NCBI RefSeq assembly: GCF_004634425.1
Contig: NZ_SBJL01000001.1
Location: 903,001 to 967,000 of the forward strand
Direction of reading: 5' to 3'
Length of the DNA: 64,000 nt
From: Vitreimonas flagellata
GTDB taxonomy: Bacteria > Pseudomonadota > Alphaproteobacteria > Caulobacterales > Aquidulcibacteraceae
The position numbers and the translations under genes are program-made. The notes beneath the pieces were generated by a model that saw nothing but the letters and a program-made list of their open reading frames with translations, was not told the origin of the DNA and made no database searches. The stretch's first letter is position 1. Each line of letters begins with the position of its first letter. Of the stretch, positions 37,680 to 48,504 are shown piece by piece.

Positions 37680-38300
37680 TCAGCGCGCGACCGGAAGCAG
37701 CCCCATTCGCCGCGCATTGATGATCGCCTCGACCCGATTGCGGGCCCCGGTCGTGCGCAACAGGCTCTGCACGTGGAATTTCACGGTCGCCAGCCAGAGC
37801 CCCAGATCACGCGCGATCACCTTGTTGGAGCCGCCCTGTTCGATGCGGTGCAAGATTTCCATCTCGCGCCGGCTCAAGCTGTGCGCCGAGCGCGCGGCGG
37901 AGCGGTCCGCCGCCATCAGCGGCAACGCCTGCGTGGGATAGCAGGCGCCGCCATTGAGCACCAATGCGACCGCGCCGACGATCGCCTGGCCGCGCATCGT
38001 CTTGACGATATAGCCATGCGCACCGGCCGCCAGCGCTTGGCGTGCGATGTCGTCGTTGAGACTGGCTGACGTGATTATCACCGGCGCCTCGCCCGCTGCG
38101 CGGATCGCGCCGCCAATGTCGACGCGCTTCAGCGTCTCGGCATTGATCAGCGCAACATCGAAGCCCCCTTTGTTCAAATCATCGAGCGCGCCTTCGGCGT
38201 CGAATGCGCAGACCGCGCCTTCGCCCCACGCCTCCGTCAGCACAGCGCAGAGCGCGTCGCGAAATAAGGGTTGCCCATCGAGCACAAACAGACGCGCCAT
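37680..38300 (-). CDS. NarL/LuxR-type response regulator with degenerate receiver
   Basis: A 206-residue protein. Receiver domain residues 1-115 start MARLFVLDGQPLFRDALCAV, and a LuxR HTH follows (SLSRREMEILHRIEQGGSNK then VIARDLGLWLATVKFHVQSLL). In the usual FDVxLLD position the sequence reads FDVALINAETL, so the phospho-acceptor Asp is Asn-53. The acidic pair (normally DD) is DG at 8-9. The conserved Lys in GYIVKTMRG is kept. It cannot be phosphorylated at the usual place. ATG 38300 has AGGAGAGAGG upstream. Its start is three bases from the stop of the kinase-like gene, so the two are co-transcribed. Confidence 0.9.
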   Translation of the reverse strand: MARLFVLDGQPLFRDALCAVLTEAWGEGAVCAFDAEGALDDLNKGGFDVALINAETLKRVDIGGAIRAAGEAPVIITSASLNDDIARQALAAGAHGYIVKTMRGQAIVGAVALVLNGGACYPTQALPLMAADRSAARSAHSLSRREMEILHRIEQGGSNKVIARDLGLWLATVKFHVQSLLRTTGARNRVEAIINARRMGLLPVAR

Positions 38301-38302
38301 GA

Positions 38303-39472
38303 TCAACCTCTCTCCTGCAAAGGACAATGTATCTGTAGCGTGAACACGCTGCCCTTGCCCAATTCACTGCGCGCACTCAGCTCGCCATTGAGCTGCTTGG
38401 CGAGCGTACGCGCCACCATCAACCCGAAGCCCGGCCCACCGCGATCGCGCATCTCCGTCATGGCGCCATCGCCGAACAGGCGCGCAAGCTGCGCGCTACT
38501 GAGGCCAATACCGGTGTCGCGCACGTCGAATGTGACGACATCCTCGCCCAACCCCCGCGTGTGCGACATGCGCACTTCGACATCGCCGTCCACGGTGAAG
38601 CGCGCGGCGTTGCGCAACAGAATGTGCAAGCAGCGCCCAAGCTTTTCCGAATCCGTGAACACGGGCGGCACCACGCCGAACACTTTGATGTTCACGCGCC
38701 GGCTCGCCGCTTCCTCGCGCACGATTTCAACCGCGGCGCCCACCACGACGGCAGGGTCAATCACATCAAAGCCTGCGGCGGCATCAGTCTGCACTCGCGC
38801 CACTTCCAGCAGCCCGTTGATCAACCGCCGCAGACGCTCGCCGGAGCGGATGACGTGGTTCAGATCATCGGTCGTGCTGAGCTGCGGCGGCAAATCTTCG
38901 AGGATGAGCTCGGCGTAGCCAATAATCACATTCAAAGGCGTGCGCAGATCATCGCCAAGGCCCGCAAAGAAGCGCGCTCGCGCCGTGCTCTCCGCATCTG
39001 CGGCGTCCAGATAAGCAGAGAGCACGATGCTGATGTCCAGCATCGCGCATTTCAGCAAAGCCGTGACCGTTCGCGCACGCATGTCCGCCGCGATCGCAGC
39101 GTTCCGCAACAACGCACGCACCAACTCGGCGAGCACCAGCGCATATCCGCCAATGTAAAAGCCATGATCCAGGCCAATGCGCGCGTGCGCCTCGCCGATC
39201 CGTTTGGCGCGTTCAGCATGGGTTGCGCCGAATTCACCCGCGACGAGCCAGCGCCAATGATTCAATTGCCCGGCGCGTGCGCGCTGCAGGTGCGGCTCGT
39301 CTACGAACTTGCCCAAAGCCGGCGCGTGTCGGCGCATATCGTCGTAGAGCAGGTCGACCGCATGCGGCAGCGCCGCCTCAAGCGTGACGCGCCCCGCCGC
39401 CAACGCCGCGCGCTCGTCTTCGTCGATGCGCAGAAAGTGCGCCAACGCCGCAACATCGCTCCTCGGCCCCAT
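38303..39472 (-). CDS. Globin-coupled histidine-kinase-like protein lacking the phospho-acceptor His
   Basis: A 389-residue cytosolic protein. Residues ~10-155 resemble a protoglobin sensor, with the proximal His in the EAHARIGLDHGFYIGGY segment (about H96). After ~160 comes a dimerisation/phosphotransfer helix reading FFAGLGDDLRTPLNVIIGYAEL. Normal kinases have SHELRTPLN, and here the His is Asp-174. The ATPase motifs are intact (LLRNAARFT, DVRDTGIGLS, GGPGFGLMVART). I expect a heme-gas sensor that binds ATP but cannot autophosphorylate in the standard way. ATG 39472 is chosen. The open frame extends to 39568 but includes the intergenic operator region. Coupled to the degenerate regulator downstream. 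Confidence 0.9.
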   Translation of the reverse strand: MGPRSDVAALAHFLRIDEDERAALAAGRVTLEAALPHAVDLLYDDMRRHAPALGKFVDEPHLQRARAGQLNHWRWLVAGEFGATHAERAKRIGEAHARIGLDHGFYIGGYALVLAELVRALLRNAAIAADMRARTVTALLKCAMLDISIVLSAYLDAADAESTARARFFAGLGDDLRTPLNVIIGYAELILEDLPPQLSTTDDLNHVIRSGERLRRLINGLLEVARVQTDAAAGFDVIDPAVVVGAAVEIVREEAASRRVNIKVFGVVPPVFTDSEKLGRCLHILLRNAARFTVDGDVEVRMSHTRGLGEDVVTFDVRDTGIGLSSAQLARLFGDGAMTEMRDRGGPGFGLMVARTLAKQLNGELSARSELGKGSVFTLQIHCPLQERG

Positions 39473-39539: not shown

Positions 39540-39589
39540 CCTGACACGTACGTAAGGCAGAGTCGCAATGATCAGCATCAAAAGACGGA

Positions 39590-39603
39590 GTGATCTACAT
39601 CAA
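39590..39603. promoter_or_regulatory. FNR/FixK-type box between the globin kinase and crp/fnr genes
   Basis: GTGATCTACATCAA matches TTGATNNNNATCAA at nine of ten defined positions. It lies 82 bases before the chosen start of the crp/fnr gene on the plus strand and 118 bases before the kinase start on the minus strand. A 10-bp palindrome, GTGACGTCAC, follows at 39616-39625. Both could make this divergent promoter region respond to FNR-family regulators. Confidence 0.55.
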
Positions 39604-39684
39604 TACACTTTATCAGTGACGTCACAGTCAGGTTTCTTACTTAGTTTGTACTTGTTGCCTGCGCTTCAAAGAATGAGGTACCAG

Positions 39685-40461
39685 ATGTTCCTTGGCGGCA
39701 CGCATGAATTGCGCGCGCCTTCTCCCATCCGTGATGAAAAGGTGCAGAACGTGCCGAGCCAAGCCGATTGCAATACATGCAAGATCGGCGCGCTCACGAT
39801 CTACGCGCCGACATTCGCGCAATCACCGCAGACGATTTGCGGACTGCGCAAACAAGTCGTGCGCTATCGCGCGCATCAAACAATTCAGCGCGCCGGTGAA
39901 GTGCCTTCACGCGCTTATACTCTATTCAAAGGCTGGGCTTGCCGCGCGATTCACTTCCCTGACGGGCGACGACAAATCTTGTCGGTGCTGTTGCCGGGCG
40001 ACACGATCTGCATCGAGAACATCTGGGTCGACAATTACAAAGTGCCGTTCACCGTGCGCTCGCTGACGGACGTCGTGCTGTGCGCCTTCGAGCCGCGCGA
40101 TCTGTTGGAGATCGTCGATGCGAACATGCCTCAACAGCGGATGTTCTCCACACACGTGCAACACATGATAAATCAAGCGGAACGGCGCTTGGTTGATATT
40201 GGCCGCCGTCGCGCGGTCGCGCGCATCGCGCGTCTTGTGTTGGATATTCACTCAACTCTGCGTGAGCGTGGCCTCGTCGAAGGCGAGACGTTCGAGTTCC
40301 CATTGCGCCAGGAGGATCTCGCCGACGCGCTCGGCATCACCACCGCGCACACCAACCGGACGTTGCTGACTCTACGTCGCCTGGGCGCTCTCGAAATCCG
40401 ACTAGGCCAAGCGCGCCTGCTCGACATTGAAGCCCTGAAGCGTATCGGCGCGAACGAATAA
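39685..40461 (+). CDS. Crp/Fnr-family regulator with unusual cysteine spacing
   Basis: A 258-residue protein: N-terminal extension (~40 residues), cyclic-nucleotide-type beta-roll, long dimerisation helix and winged HTH. The HTH reads LRQEDLADALGITTAHTNRTL, so the recognition part has TAHTNR instead of the FNR VETISR. Cysteines occur as CNTC (29 and 32) with the next at 52, and others at WAC and TICIE. That is not the FNR spacing (C-x2-C-x5-C), so a [4Fe-4S] cluster is possible but not shown. I chose ATG 39685, with GAGG eight bases upstream. ATG 39673 is an alternative. Confidence 0.85.
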   Translation: MFLGGTHELRAPSPIRDEKVQNVPSQADCNTCKIGALTIYAPTFAQSPQTICGLRKQVVRYRAHQTIQRAGEVPSRAYTLFKGWACRAIHFPDGRRQILSVLLPGDTICIENIWVDNYKVPFTVRSLTDVVLCAFEPRDLLEIVDANMPQQRMFSTHVQHMINQAERRLVDIGRRRAVARIARLVLDIHSTLRERGLVEGETFEFPLRQEDLADALGITTAHTNRTLLTLRRLGALEIRLGQARLLDIEALKRIGANE

Positions 40462-46758: not shown

Positions 46759-48405
46759 TTATTCAGCCGCGACGGCTTGCGCCGGGACGTCGGCGGCGCG
46801 GTCGACGCTGGGCTCTTTGCCCGTCGCCGTACGCCACAGATTGTAAGCCATGATCAGCGCGCCGAGCAGGAACAGAACGCCGCCCAAGGCACGGATCGCG
46901 TAGTATGGATGCATCGCCTCGACGCTTTCGACGAACGAGTATTCGAGGAAGCCGAACTCGTTGTACGCGCGCCACATCAGGCCCTGCATGATGCCCGCGA
47001 CCCACATCGACGTGATGTAGAGCACGATGCCGATGGTCGAGAGCCAGAAGTGCCACTCGACAAGCGCATGGTTCACCTGGCGCTTTCTCCAGAGCCACGG
47101 CGTCAAGCAATAGAGCGCGCCGAAGCTGACGAAGCCGACCCAACCGAGCGCGCCCGAATGCACGTGACCGATGGTCCAATCCGTGTAGTGCGACAGCGAG
47201 TTGACGGCGCGGATCGACATCACCGGGCCTTCAAAGGTCGACATGCCGTAGAACGCCACCGAGACAACAAGCATGCGCAACACGGGGTCCGTGCGCAGCT
47301 TGTCCCACGCGCCCGAGAGCGTCATGAGGCCGTTGATCATGCCGCCCCAGCTCGGCATCCACAGCATGAGCGAGAAAGTCATGCCGAGCGTCTGCGCCCA
47401 TTGGGGCAACGCCGTGTAGTGCAGATGGTGCGGACCCGCCCAGATGTAGAGGAAGATCAGCGCCCAGAAGTGGATGATCGAAAGCCGATACGAATAGACC
47501 GGGCGATCCGCCTGCTTCGGGATGAAATAATACATGATCCCGAGGAAGCCGGCGGTGAGGAAGAAGCCGACGGCGTTGTGGCCGTACCACCATTGCGTCA
47601 GCGCATCCTGCACGCCCGCGAAGGCGGAGTAGCTGAACCAGCCGCTGAAGCTCACCGGGATCGCCAGATTGTTGACGAGATGCAGCATCGCGATGGTGAC
47701 GATGAACGCCAGATAGAACCAATTGGCGACGTAGATGTGCTGCTCTTGCCGCTTCCAGATCGTGCCGAGGAAAACCAGCAGATAGGCGACCCACACGATG
47801 GTGAGCCAAATGTCCGTGTACCACGGCAACTCCGCATATTCGCGGCCTTGCGTGACGCCGAGCAGATAGCCCGTGCCCGCAAGCAGGATCACGAGCTGGA
47901 AGCCCCAGAACACGAACCACGGCCACAAGCCGCCGGCCAGACGCGCGCGGCAGGTGCGCTGCACGACGTAGAACGACGTCGCGATCAGCACGTTGCCGCC
48001 GAACGCGAAGATCACCGCGTTGGTATGCAACGGCCGCAGGCGGCCGAAGTTGAGCCAGCCGAAATCTTCGAAATAGAGAATGTTCGGGAACGCGAGCTGG
48101 GCCGCGATGATCACGCCGACCAAGAAGCCCGCGACCCCCCAGAACATGGACGCGATCACACCGGCCTTGATCACGCCGTTCTCATAGCGCGAGCCATGGT
48201 CAGCCGGATTGGGATTGACGACGCTGCCGACCAGCAGCACGCCGCCCACAATGAAGGCCGCCAACGCTGTCCACATTTGGATCGCGAAAGCGCGGTCCGT
48301 GGCGTGCGCGGCGCCCCAAAGCGCATAAAAGGCGCCCAAAACAACGATCGCAAGAATAGCGAGGGCGTCGATGCGCCATTCTTGCTTTGTGATTGCAGCA
48401 CTCAT
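46759..48405 (-). CDS. ccoN: Cbb3-type cytochrome c oxidase, catalytic subunit CcoN
   Basis: The heme-copper catalytic subunit, which reduces oxygen at very low concentrations while pumping protons. The 548-residue, ~12-helix protein has [20 protein letters not shown] (low-spin heme His) and the active-site block [22 protein letters not shown] (CuB His with the cross-linked Tyr). [17 protein letters not shown] carries the CuB ligands and [16 protein letters not shown] the heme ligands. It is the first gene of ccoNOQP-GHIS. A FixK-type box lies 86 bases upstream of the ATG. Confidence 0.97.
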
Positions 48406-48490: not shown

Positions 48491-48504
48491 TTGATCTCGG
48501 TCAA
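48491..48504. promoter_or_regulatory. FixK/FNR box upstream of ccoN and a divergent small gene
   Basis: TTGATCTCGGTCAA matches TTGATNNNNRTCAA. Its centre is about 92 bases from the ccoN ATG on the minus strand and about 58 bases from the small plus-strand gene at 48556. If the site sits at -41.5, the plus-strand start would be near 48539, with TAATGA at 48527-48532 as a -10. The minus-strand start would then be near 48456. It may act in both directions. Confidence 0.8.

Follow-up and report, generated by a model that had tools for sequence, protein, structure and literature searches.

Proteins of two-component type that work independently of phosphorylation are already known. DivL (PMC4211667, PMC9491836), Osp with its target CckA (PMC9430884) and RitR, which has Asn53 (PMC4395418), are described in this way. 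In the figures given by a 2025 review, HisKA domains without the phospho-acceptor His (H-less) make up 0.9% (722 of 76,471) and receivers without the phospho-acceptor Asp (D-less) 2.0% (3,111 of 152,269); the same review calls the on/off switching of bacterial pseudo-receivers a mystery, and only 2 of the 20 pseudo-receiver cases it describes are not orphans (PMC12632262). Among heme sensors, the globin-coupled histidine kinase AfGcHK is reported to have His99 as the proximal ligand and Tyr45 as the distal O2-recognition residue (PMC8697598).

We have analysed a window of 64,000 nucleotides from Vitreimonas flagellata (assembly GCF_004634425.1, contig NZ_SBJL01000001.1, positions 903,001 to 967,000); the genome assembly is 99.97% complete and consists of 16 contigs. 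The window carries a globin-coupled sensor gene and a regulator gene in which the phospho-sites are replaced (Table 1). We consider that their products may form a phospho-independent pair of pseudo-kinase and pseudo-receiver, which would be specific to this lineage, made of known parts, placed under Fnr-type control and probably signalling by contact. This reading is tentative, and we give it slightly less than an even chance.

Table 1. Features of the sensor-regulator locus and its control region (positions in the window).
Feature	Position	Strand	Basis
Globin-coupled pseudo-histidine kinase, 389 aa	38303..39472	-	Open reading frame and Pfam domains
Protoglobin (heme sensor) domain, residues 6-158	38999..39457	-	Pfam PF11563, 111 bits
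Tyr43 codon, predicted distal Tyr	39344..39346	-	Aligns with AfGcHK Tyr45
His96 codon, predicted proximal heme ligand	39185..39187	-	Aligns with AfGcHK His99 (5ohe)
HisKA (DHp) domain, residues 164-228	38789..38983	-	Pfam PF00512, 55.2 bits
Asp174 codon (GAT), phospho-His position	38951..38953	-	His in L009, L010, L011
HATPase_c domain, residues 274-382	38327..38653	-	72.1 bits; N/G1/G2 boxes intact
NarL-type regulator with pseudo-receiver, 206 aa	37680..38300	-	Open reading frame and Pfam
Receiver domain, residues 5-111, degenerate	37968..38288	-	Response_reg, 30.8 bits
Asp8-Gly9 replacing the acidic pair	38274..38279	-	Asp-Asp in 19/19 homologues
Asn53 codon (AAT), phospho-Asp position	38142..38144	-	Asp in aligned homologues, 18/18 + 19/19
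LuxR/GerE DNA-binding domain, residues 140-194	37719..37883	-	53.5 bits
Putative Fnr/FixK-type box, 1 mismatch to TTGATNNNNATCAA	39590..39603	.	Site scan
Second putative Fnr/FixK-type box, 1 mismatch to TTGATNNNNATCAA	39568..39581	.	Site scan
Divergent Crp/Fnr-family regulator	39568..40461	+	Start more likely 39673

The preliminary description of this DNA had read the sensor as a protoglobin-type protein with a likely heme His, intact ATP-binding boxes and an Asp at the phospho-His position, and the Pfam matches and the alignments agree with that reading. The H-box is GLGDDLRTPLN, in which Asp174 occupies the phospho-His site and, according to the alignment with relatives, the Thr (T178) is retained. 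The heme residues were mapped by aligning AfGcHK (5ohe) with a profile built from the sensor domains of four globin kinases; the predicted proximal ligand His96 also lies within a matching HemAT motif and is invariant across the alignments made. The G1 box (DTGIG), the G2 box (GGPGFGL) and the N box are intact. With the heme-ligand residues and the ATP boxes kept, both the sensor part and the ATP part appear serviceable, whereas the phosphate site does not. Thus, on the one hand, the protein resembles a globin-coupled histidine kinase in its protoglobin domain with a proximal His and in its N, G1 and G2 boxes. On the other hand, its DHp domain lacks the phospho-acceptor His, and as a HisKA/HATPase protein without the His site it falls under the definition of a pseudo-histidine kinase. 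Without this His, gas-regulated autophosphorylation is not expected.

The regulator gene lies downstream of the sensor gene on the same strand, with 2 nt between the sensor stop codon and the regulator ATG. Its Response_reg score of 30.8 bits is barely above the cut-off of 30.2 and places it 53rd by rank among the 56 receiver matches of the genome, and the Thr/Ser and Lys positions of the receiver look kept in the alignment. Comparison with the aligned homologues bore out the earlier claim that Asn-53 stands in place of the phospho-Asp and DG in place of the acidic pair. It had also been claimed that both lesions occur in adjacent genes with intact reading frames, and this holds with the positions of Table 1 and the 2-nt gap; broken or frameshifted genes were ruled out, both frames being open. 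The two genes are adjacent and on the same strand as in a canonical two-component system, but the receiver has no phospho-Asp, so that the regulator belongs with the aspartate-less receivers, defined as PF00072 matches without this residue. On these residues, His-to-Asp phosphotransfer from the sensor to the regulator would be very unlikely. Because each gene lacks its phosphate-passing residue, the pair, if it still signals, must use another route.

We searched for relatives of both proteins; from two match lists that had more entries, 30 loci each were classified. The family was covered by 60 genomes, some of them incomplete and 30 from the same genus. The globin kinase was found in four (this genome, G050, G056 and G042), indicating a patchy distribution of 4 in 30 within the genus, its own genome included and with the incomplete ones counted. 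No additional globin kinase above the set threshold was found in 398 genomes of the order, and one more, in G309, was found among 385 genomes of the class. All four of these other globin kinases keep the phospho-His, and the identity between the window sensor and its His-bearing relatives is 39-44%. As to the regulator, 20 loci made up the first homologue set, of which 18 were aligned after the partial loci L050 and L063 had been left out. The phospho-Asp is present in 37 of 37 aligned homologues (18 and 19 in the two sets), and the acidic pair is Asp-Asp in all 19 of the second set. The full-length homologues share at most 40% identity with the regulator, and some matches to the DNA-binding part only reach 44-45%; no clear orthologue was found among the homologues searched. 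It had been proposed to ask whether Asp174 and Asn53 are conserved among homologues. Neither is among the homologues aligned: at the former site His stands in 3/3 same-genus relatives and in G309, and at the latter the aligned homologues uniformly have Asp. Conservation across relatives was accordingly rejected, each residue having been seen in one genome only. Since all 18 + 19 aligned homologues have Asp, Asn53 appears, within this sample, to be confined to this genome.

The relatives of the sensor are themselves in a varied state. The phospho-His is still present in the G056 kinase (L010, G056:C2:106935-108122), but the G1 and G2 signatures are gone from its ATP domain, which scores low (38 bits) and looks relaxed. 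Interrupted frames were found in two others, L011 (G042:C72:102988-103959) and L107 (G309:C39:45349-46437); as completeness is 83% for the G042 genome and 77% for that of G309, these interruptions may be assembly faults. With two of the four other globin kinases interrupted and one ATP domain broken, the globin kinase family may be dispensable. In G050, G056 and G042, no receiver gene adjoins the globin kinase (0 of 3), and no homologue of the window regulator stands beside it. In G050, the place of the window regulator is occupied by a 138-aa Cro/C1-type DNA-binding protein (L095:6752-7168, G050:C21; HTH_31, 38.7 bits), which is encoded 34 bp downstream of the kinase on the same strand. This arrangement indicates that a globin kinase can precede a transcription factor that is no receiver protein. 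Judged by one gene, the closest of ten same-genus genomes is G052 (82% identity), which has no full-length globin kinase. In 400 kb of G052 the syntenic locus was not found: a search with 13 window genes at E 1e-20 gave a single match, to an unrelated kinase.

Further candidates were considered and set aside. The pair has no second copy in the genome, where a single full-length globin kinase was found; the other protoglobin protein of the genome (C2:517k) has a chemoreceptor-type signalling motif by simple motif reading. Plasmid relatives were rejected as well: 1 of 2406 matching records covers at least 80% of the query, and it is a globin-coupled sensor with 25% identity. One scan of genome contigs found no relatives. 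In a further contig scan, the matches among the 80 of 567 relatives listed start at residue 86 at the least, so none of those listed reaches across the globin domain, and we made no use of them.

The preliminary description had named, as what would speak against it, homologues with intact His and Asp together with signs of decay. The intact His and Asp in homologues were indeed found, but the accompanying decay of the window copy was not: the frames are open, the ATP boxes are intact and the rates are like those of the relatives. These rates can be only a rough guide, since the pairwise dN/dS values are saturated at synonymous sites. Comparing the window sensor with G050 gives an omega of 0.28 for residues 80-386 and of 0.26 for the ATP domain. 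The ATP boxes of G056 are visibly broken, and its ATP domain yields 0.69-0.95 in the three comparisons made with it. With G042, the omega of the ATP domain is 0.55 for the window copy and 0.44 for G050, a small difference to the disadvantage of the window copy. In the DHp domain, the window sensor is 48-49% identical to its relatives, and these are 52-59% identical to each other. As far as such rough rates go, the relaxed-looking ATP domain belongs to the G056 copy rather than to the window copy, and the window genes are not visibly decaying. The omega comparison argues against free decay of the window copy, without proving function.

The two putative Fnr-type boxes lie 22 bp apart between the sensor gene and the Fnr-type gene, whose likely start is 39673, and two such sites occurred in none of 2000 mononucleotide shuffles of the intergenic region. 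In the matching region, G056 has a perfect box and G042 a site that departs from the box at two positions (shuffle fraction 0.02), and the sites of G050 are at chance level. A divergent Crp/Fnr-family gene adjoins the globin kinase in 4/4 same-genus genomes, the other three loci being L009-L011. The best NCBIfam match of the window protein is FnrL, with 69 bits, far under the curated cut-off of 300. This protein and its relatives, four in all, have in common a C-x2-C motif near the N-terminus and a central Cys, and these Cys residues may be cluster ligands. A scan for promoters and terminators detected no promoter of sigma-70 type and a single terminator-like site; shuffles gave more of the latter.

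The surroundings of the operon fit the earlier statement that it stands beside cbb3 and FixLJK genes, as cbb3, FixL/FixJ-like and divergent Fnr/FixK-type genes are all close. Another Fnr-type site with one mismatch lies at 48491, 86 bp outside the open frame 46759-48405 (-), which encodes a COX1-family oxidase subunit (402 bits); FixO (324 bits) comes next. A copper-type P-ATPase and CcoG are encoded in this neighbourhood too. FixL- and FixJ-like proteins, so called by their domain make-up, are encoded about 13 kb away, with His and Asp intact. Control of the operon by low oxygen or NO is supported by this position and by the predicted sites.

To see how unusual the pair is, we counted PF00512 and PF00072 matches in the genome, so that the kinases of this census are those of HisKA type, as distinct from HWE and HisKA_3. 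The His is missing in 5 of 40 HisKA matches, being replaced by Asp in two (one of them the sensor), Ser in one and Tyr in two. Among the receiver matches the Asp is missing in 5 of 56, which have Asn (the regulator), Thr (two), Glu and Ser. Both rates are higher than the published ones. A receiver was counted as a neighbour when its matched stretch starts at most 3 kb away, receivers in the same protein included. In this sense 25 of the 40 HisKA kinases have a receiver nearby. The window sensor alone among these 25 is H-less, and the receiver next to it is D-less; none of the four remaining H-less kinases lies within 3 kb of a receiver, and none of the four remaining D-less receivers within 3 kb of a HisKA kinase. 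The preliminary description had singled out the paired loss as what stands out, and it does so both by the published rates and by comparison with the other HisKA kinases of this genome that have a receiver as neighbour. The coincidence of H-less and D-less partners is striking, and it rests on one pair. Among the titles and abstract openings listed for the terms of our literature search, no H-less kinase that shares an operon with a D-less regulator was found.

The census brought out other members of both classes. Asp also stands at the His site of a HisKA kinase that begins with a hydrophobic N-terminal part (L327:768-2297; G000:C3, about 320267-321796). Orthologues of this kinase are present in 10/10 same-genus genomes searched, and over the 11 sequences the site holds Asp in eight, Ala in two and Ser in one, never His, with the N box and G1 intact. 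From this alignment, we conclude that it is a conserved pseudo-histidine kinase. The remaining H-less HisKA kinases are L209 (G000:C5:26037) with Ser and L213 (C4:366056) and L219 (C5:10052) with Tyr, both of which we take to resemble DivL. The other D-less receivers are L308 (C1:970076) and L319 (C1:873526) with Thr, L313 (C3:294061) with Glu and L316 (C1:276543) with Ser. The last of these shares one 475-aa frame with a normal receiver, presumably as in PleD.

The proposed mode of action is as follows. The sensor and regulator genes, which lie beside the cbb3 region, probably share one transcript under Fnr/FixK-type control. O2 or NO would bind to the heme of the globin domain and shift the DHp/ATP-binding part of the sensor. 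This shift, or the nucleotide state of a pseudo-kinase that may still bind ATP, would alter its direct binding to the NarL-type regulator. The altered binding would then change the dimerisation or the DNA binding of the regulator, with no phosphate being passed.

Other readings of the locus have to be weighed against a pair that signals by contact. The regulator may act alone, its level being set by Fnr-type control of the operon, with the kinase as a passenger that is being lost. This would agree with a GerE domain that is well kept (53.5 bits) compared with the low-scoring receiver (30.8 bits), with the lack of an adjoining regulator homologue in the three relatives, and with a patchy family in which an interrupted frame or a broken ATP domain affects three of the four other copies; pseudo-receivers controlled through their expression are also a model put forward in PMC12632262. 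However, the window copy has a full frame, the N, G1 and G2 boxes and the heme-ligand residues, and the rough rates show no clear relaxation specific to it, and we regard a passenger kinase as unlikely. The kinase might instead serve a different two-component system in trans, such as the FixL/FixJ-like pair, in a heterodimer or as a phosphatase only, with the regulator unrelated to it. T178 of the H-box is retained, HisKA phosphatase activity is stated not to need the His (PMC12632262), the pseudokinase ChrS is described as working via its partner kinase HrrS (PMC9491836), and the nearby FixL- and FixJ-like proteins have their His and Asp. Yet the FixL-like kinase is a distant match to the sensor (E 2.4e-4), the operon neighbour is a pseudo-receiver and nothing ties the kinase to another regulator, and we give action in trans only a small chance.

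Early decay, in which phosphotransfer was lost recently and both genes drift without function, seems to us a little less probable again. Asp174 and Asn53 occur in no aligned homologue, the genome closest by one gene (G052) has no full-length globin kinase and two of the four other globin kinases have interrupted frames, as such decay would allow. On the other side stand the open frames, the intact ATP and heme motifs and rough rates that give no clear sign of relaxation in this copy; also, several changes in the receiver take time, yet the regulator frame has been kept. It is scarcely credible that Asp174 is a base error of the assembly. A single codon is concerned, but the genome is nearly complete, H-less kinases are frequent in it and the partner receiver is independently degenerate: this domain departs at several positions, so a single wrong base would not explain it.

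We return to the contact-signalling pair as the preferred reading. In a bolder form, one lineage would have turned a complete two-component pair into a switch that works by contact only, without phosphate, and is composed of a heme sensor, an ATP-loaded pseudo-kinase and a pseudo-receiver; we consider this form somewhat doubtful. The claim of an established new signalling class is weakened because the substitutions were seen in no relative, while the uniqueness of the pair in its genome makes it still worth a test. With a pseudo-receiver beside an H-less sensor that has a heme domain and an ATP site, the input, a candidate coupler and the output are known. The heme ligand of the sensor can be followed by its spectrum, and the His-bearing relatives are natural comparators. 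If contact signalling is true, signalling without phosphotransfer could be studied cleanly at this locus; if it is false, the locus documents how such a system comes apart.

Compared with described systems, the window sensor shares with AfGcHK (Anaeromyxobacter sp. Fw109-5; 5ohe, 5ohf and 6otd) the protoglobin domain, the proximal His, the distal Tyr and a sensor-kinase layout in which other sensor domains are absent. As described in PMC8697598, AfGcHK autophosphorylates at His183 and passes the phosphate to its regulator, whereas the window proteins have Asp174 and, in the neighbour, Asn53. RitR and the aspartate-less receivers resemble the window regulator in Asn53, in the altered acidic pair and in the kept DNA-binding domain (PMC4395418, PMC12632262). 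RitR is reported to be under redox control through a linker Cys (PMC4395418), whereas the window regulator has as its neighbour a sensor without its His. Osp is likewise a receiver-like protein, and it affects a kinase transmitter by binding to it directly, but it is a single-domain protein and is described as inhibiting an active kinase, CckA (PMC9430884). The window pair may work partly like DivL, Osp-CckA or RitR-type proteins, by analogy with them. DivL has Tyr at the site across its orthologues, carries PAS sensors and acts on CckA/DivK, whereas the window protein has a globin as its sensor, and its missing His has been observed in a single genome. As expected of the window sensor, DivL of Caulobacter, also a HisKA/HATPase protein, has no role as a kinase (PMC4211667). 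The pair stands outside both the canonical two-component systems and the active globin kinases, as the defining phospho-sites are replaced. Judged from its genes, what appears to distinguish this locus from the described systems is that a pseudo-histidine kinase and an aspartate-less receiver are joined in one putative operon with a recognisable heme sensor.
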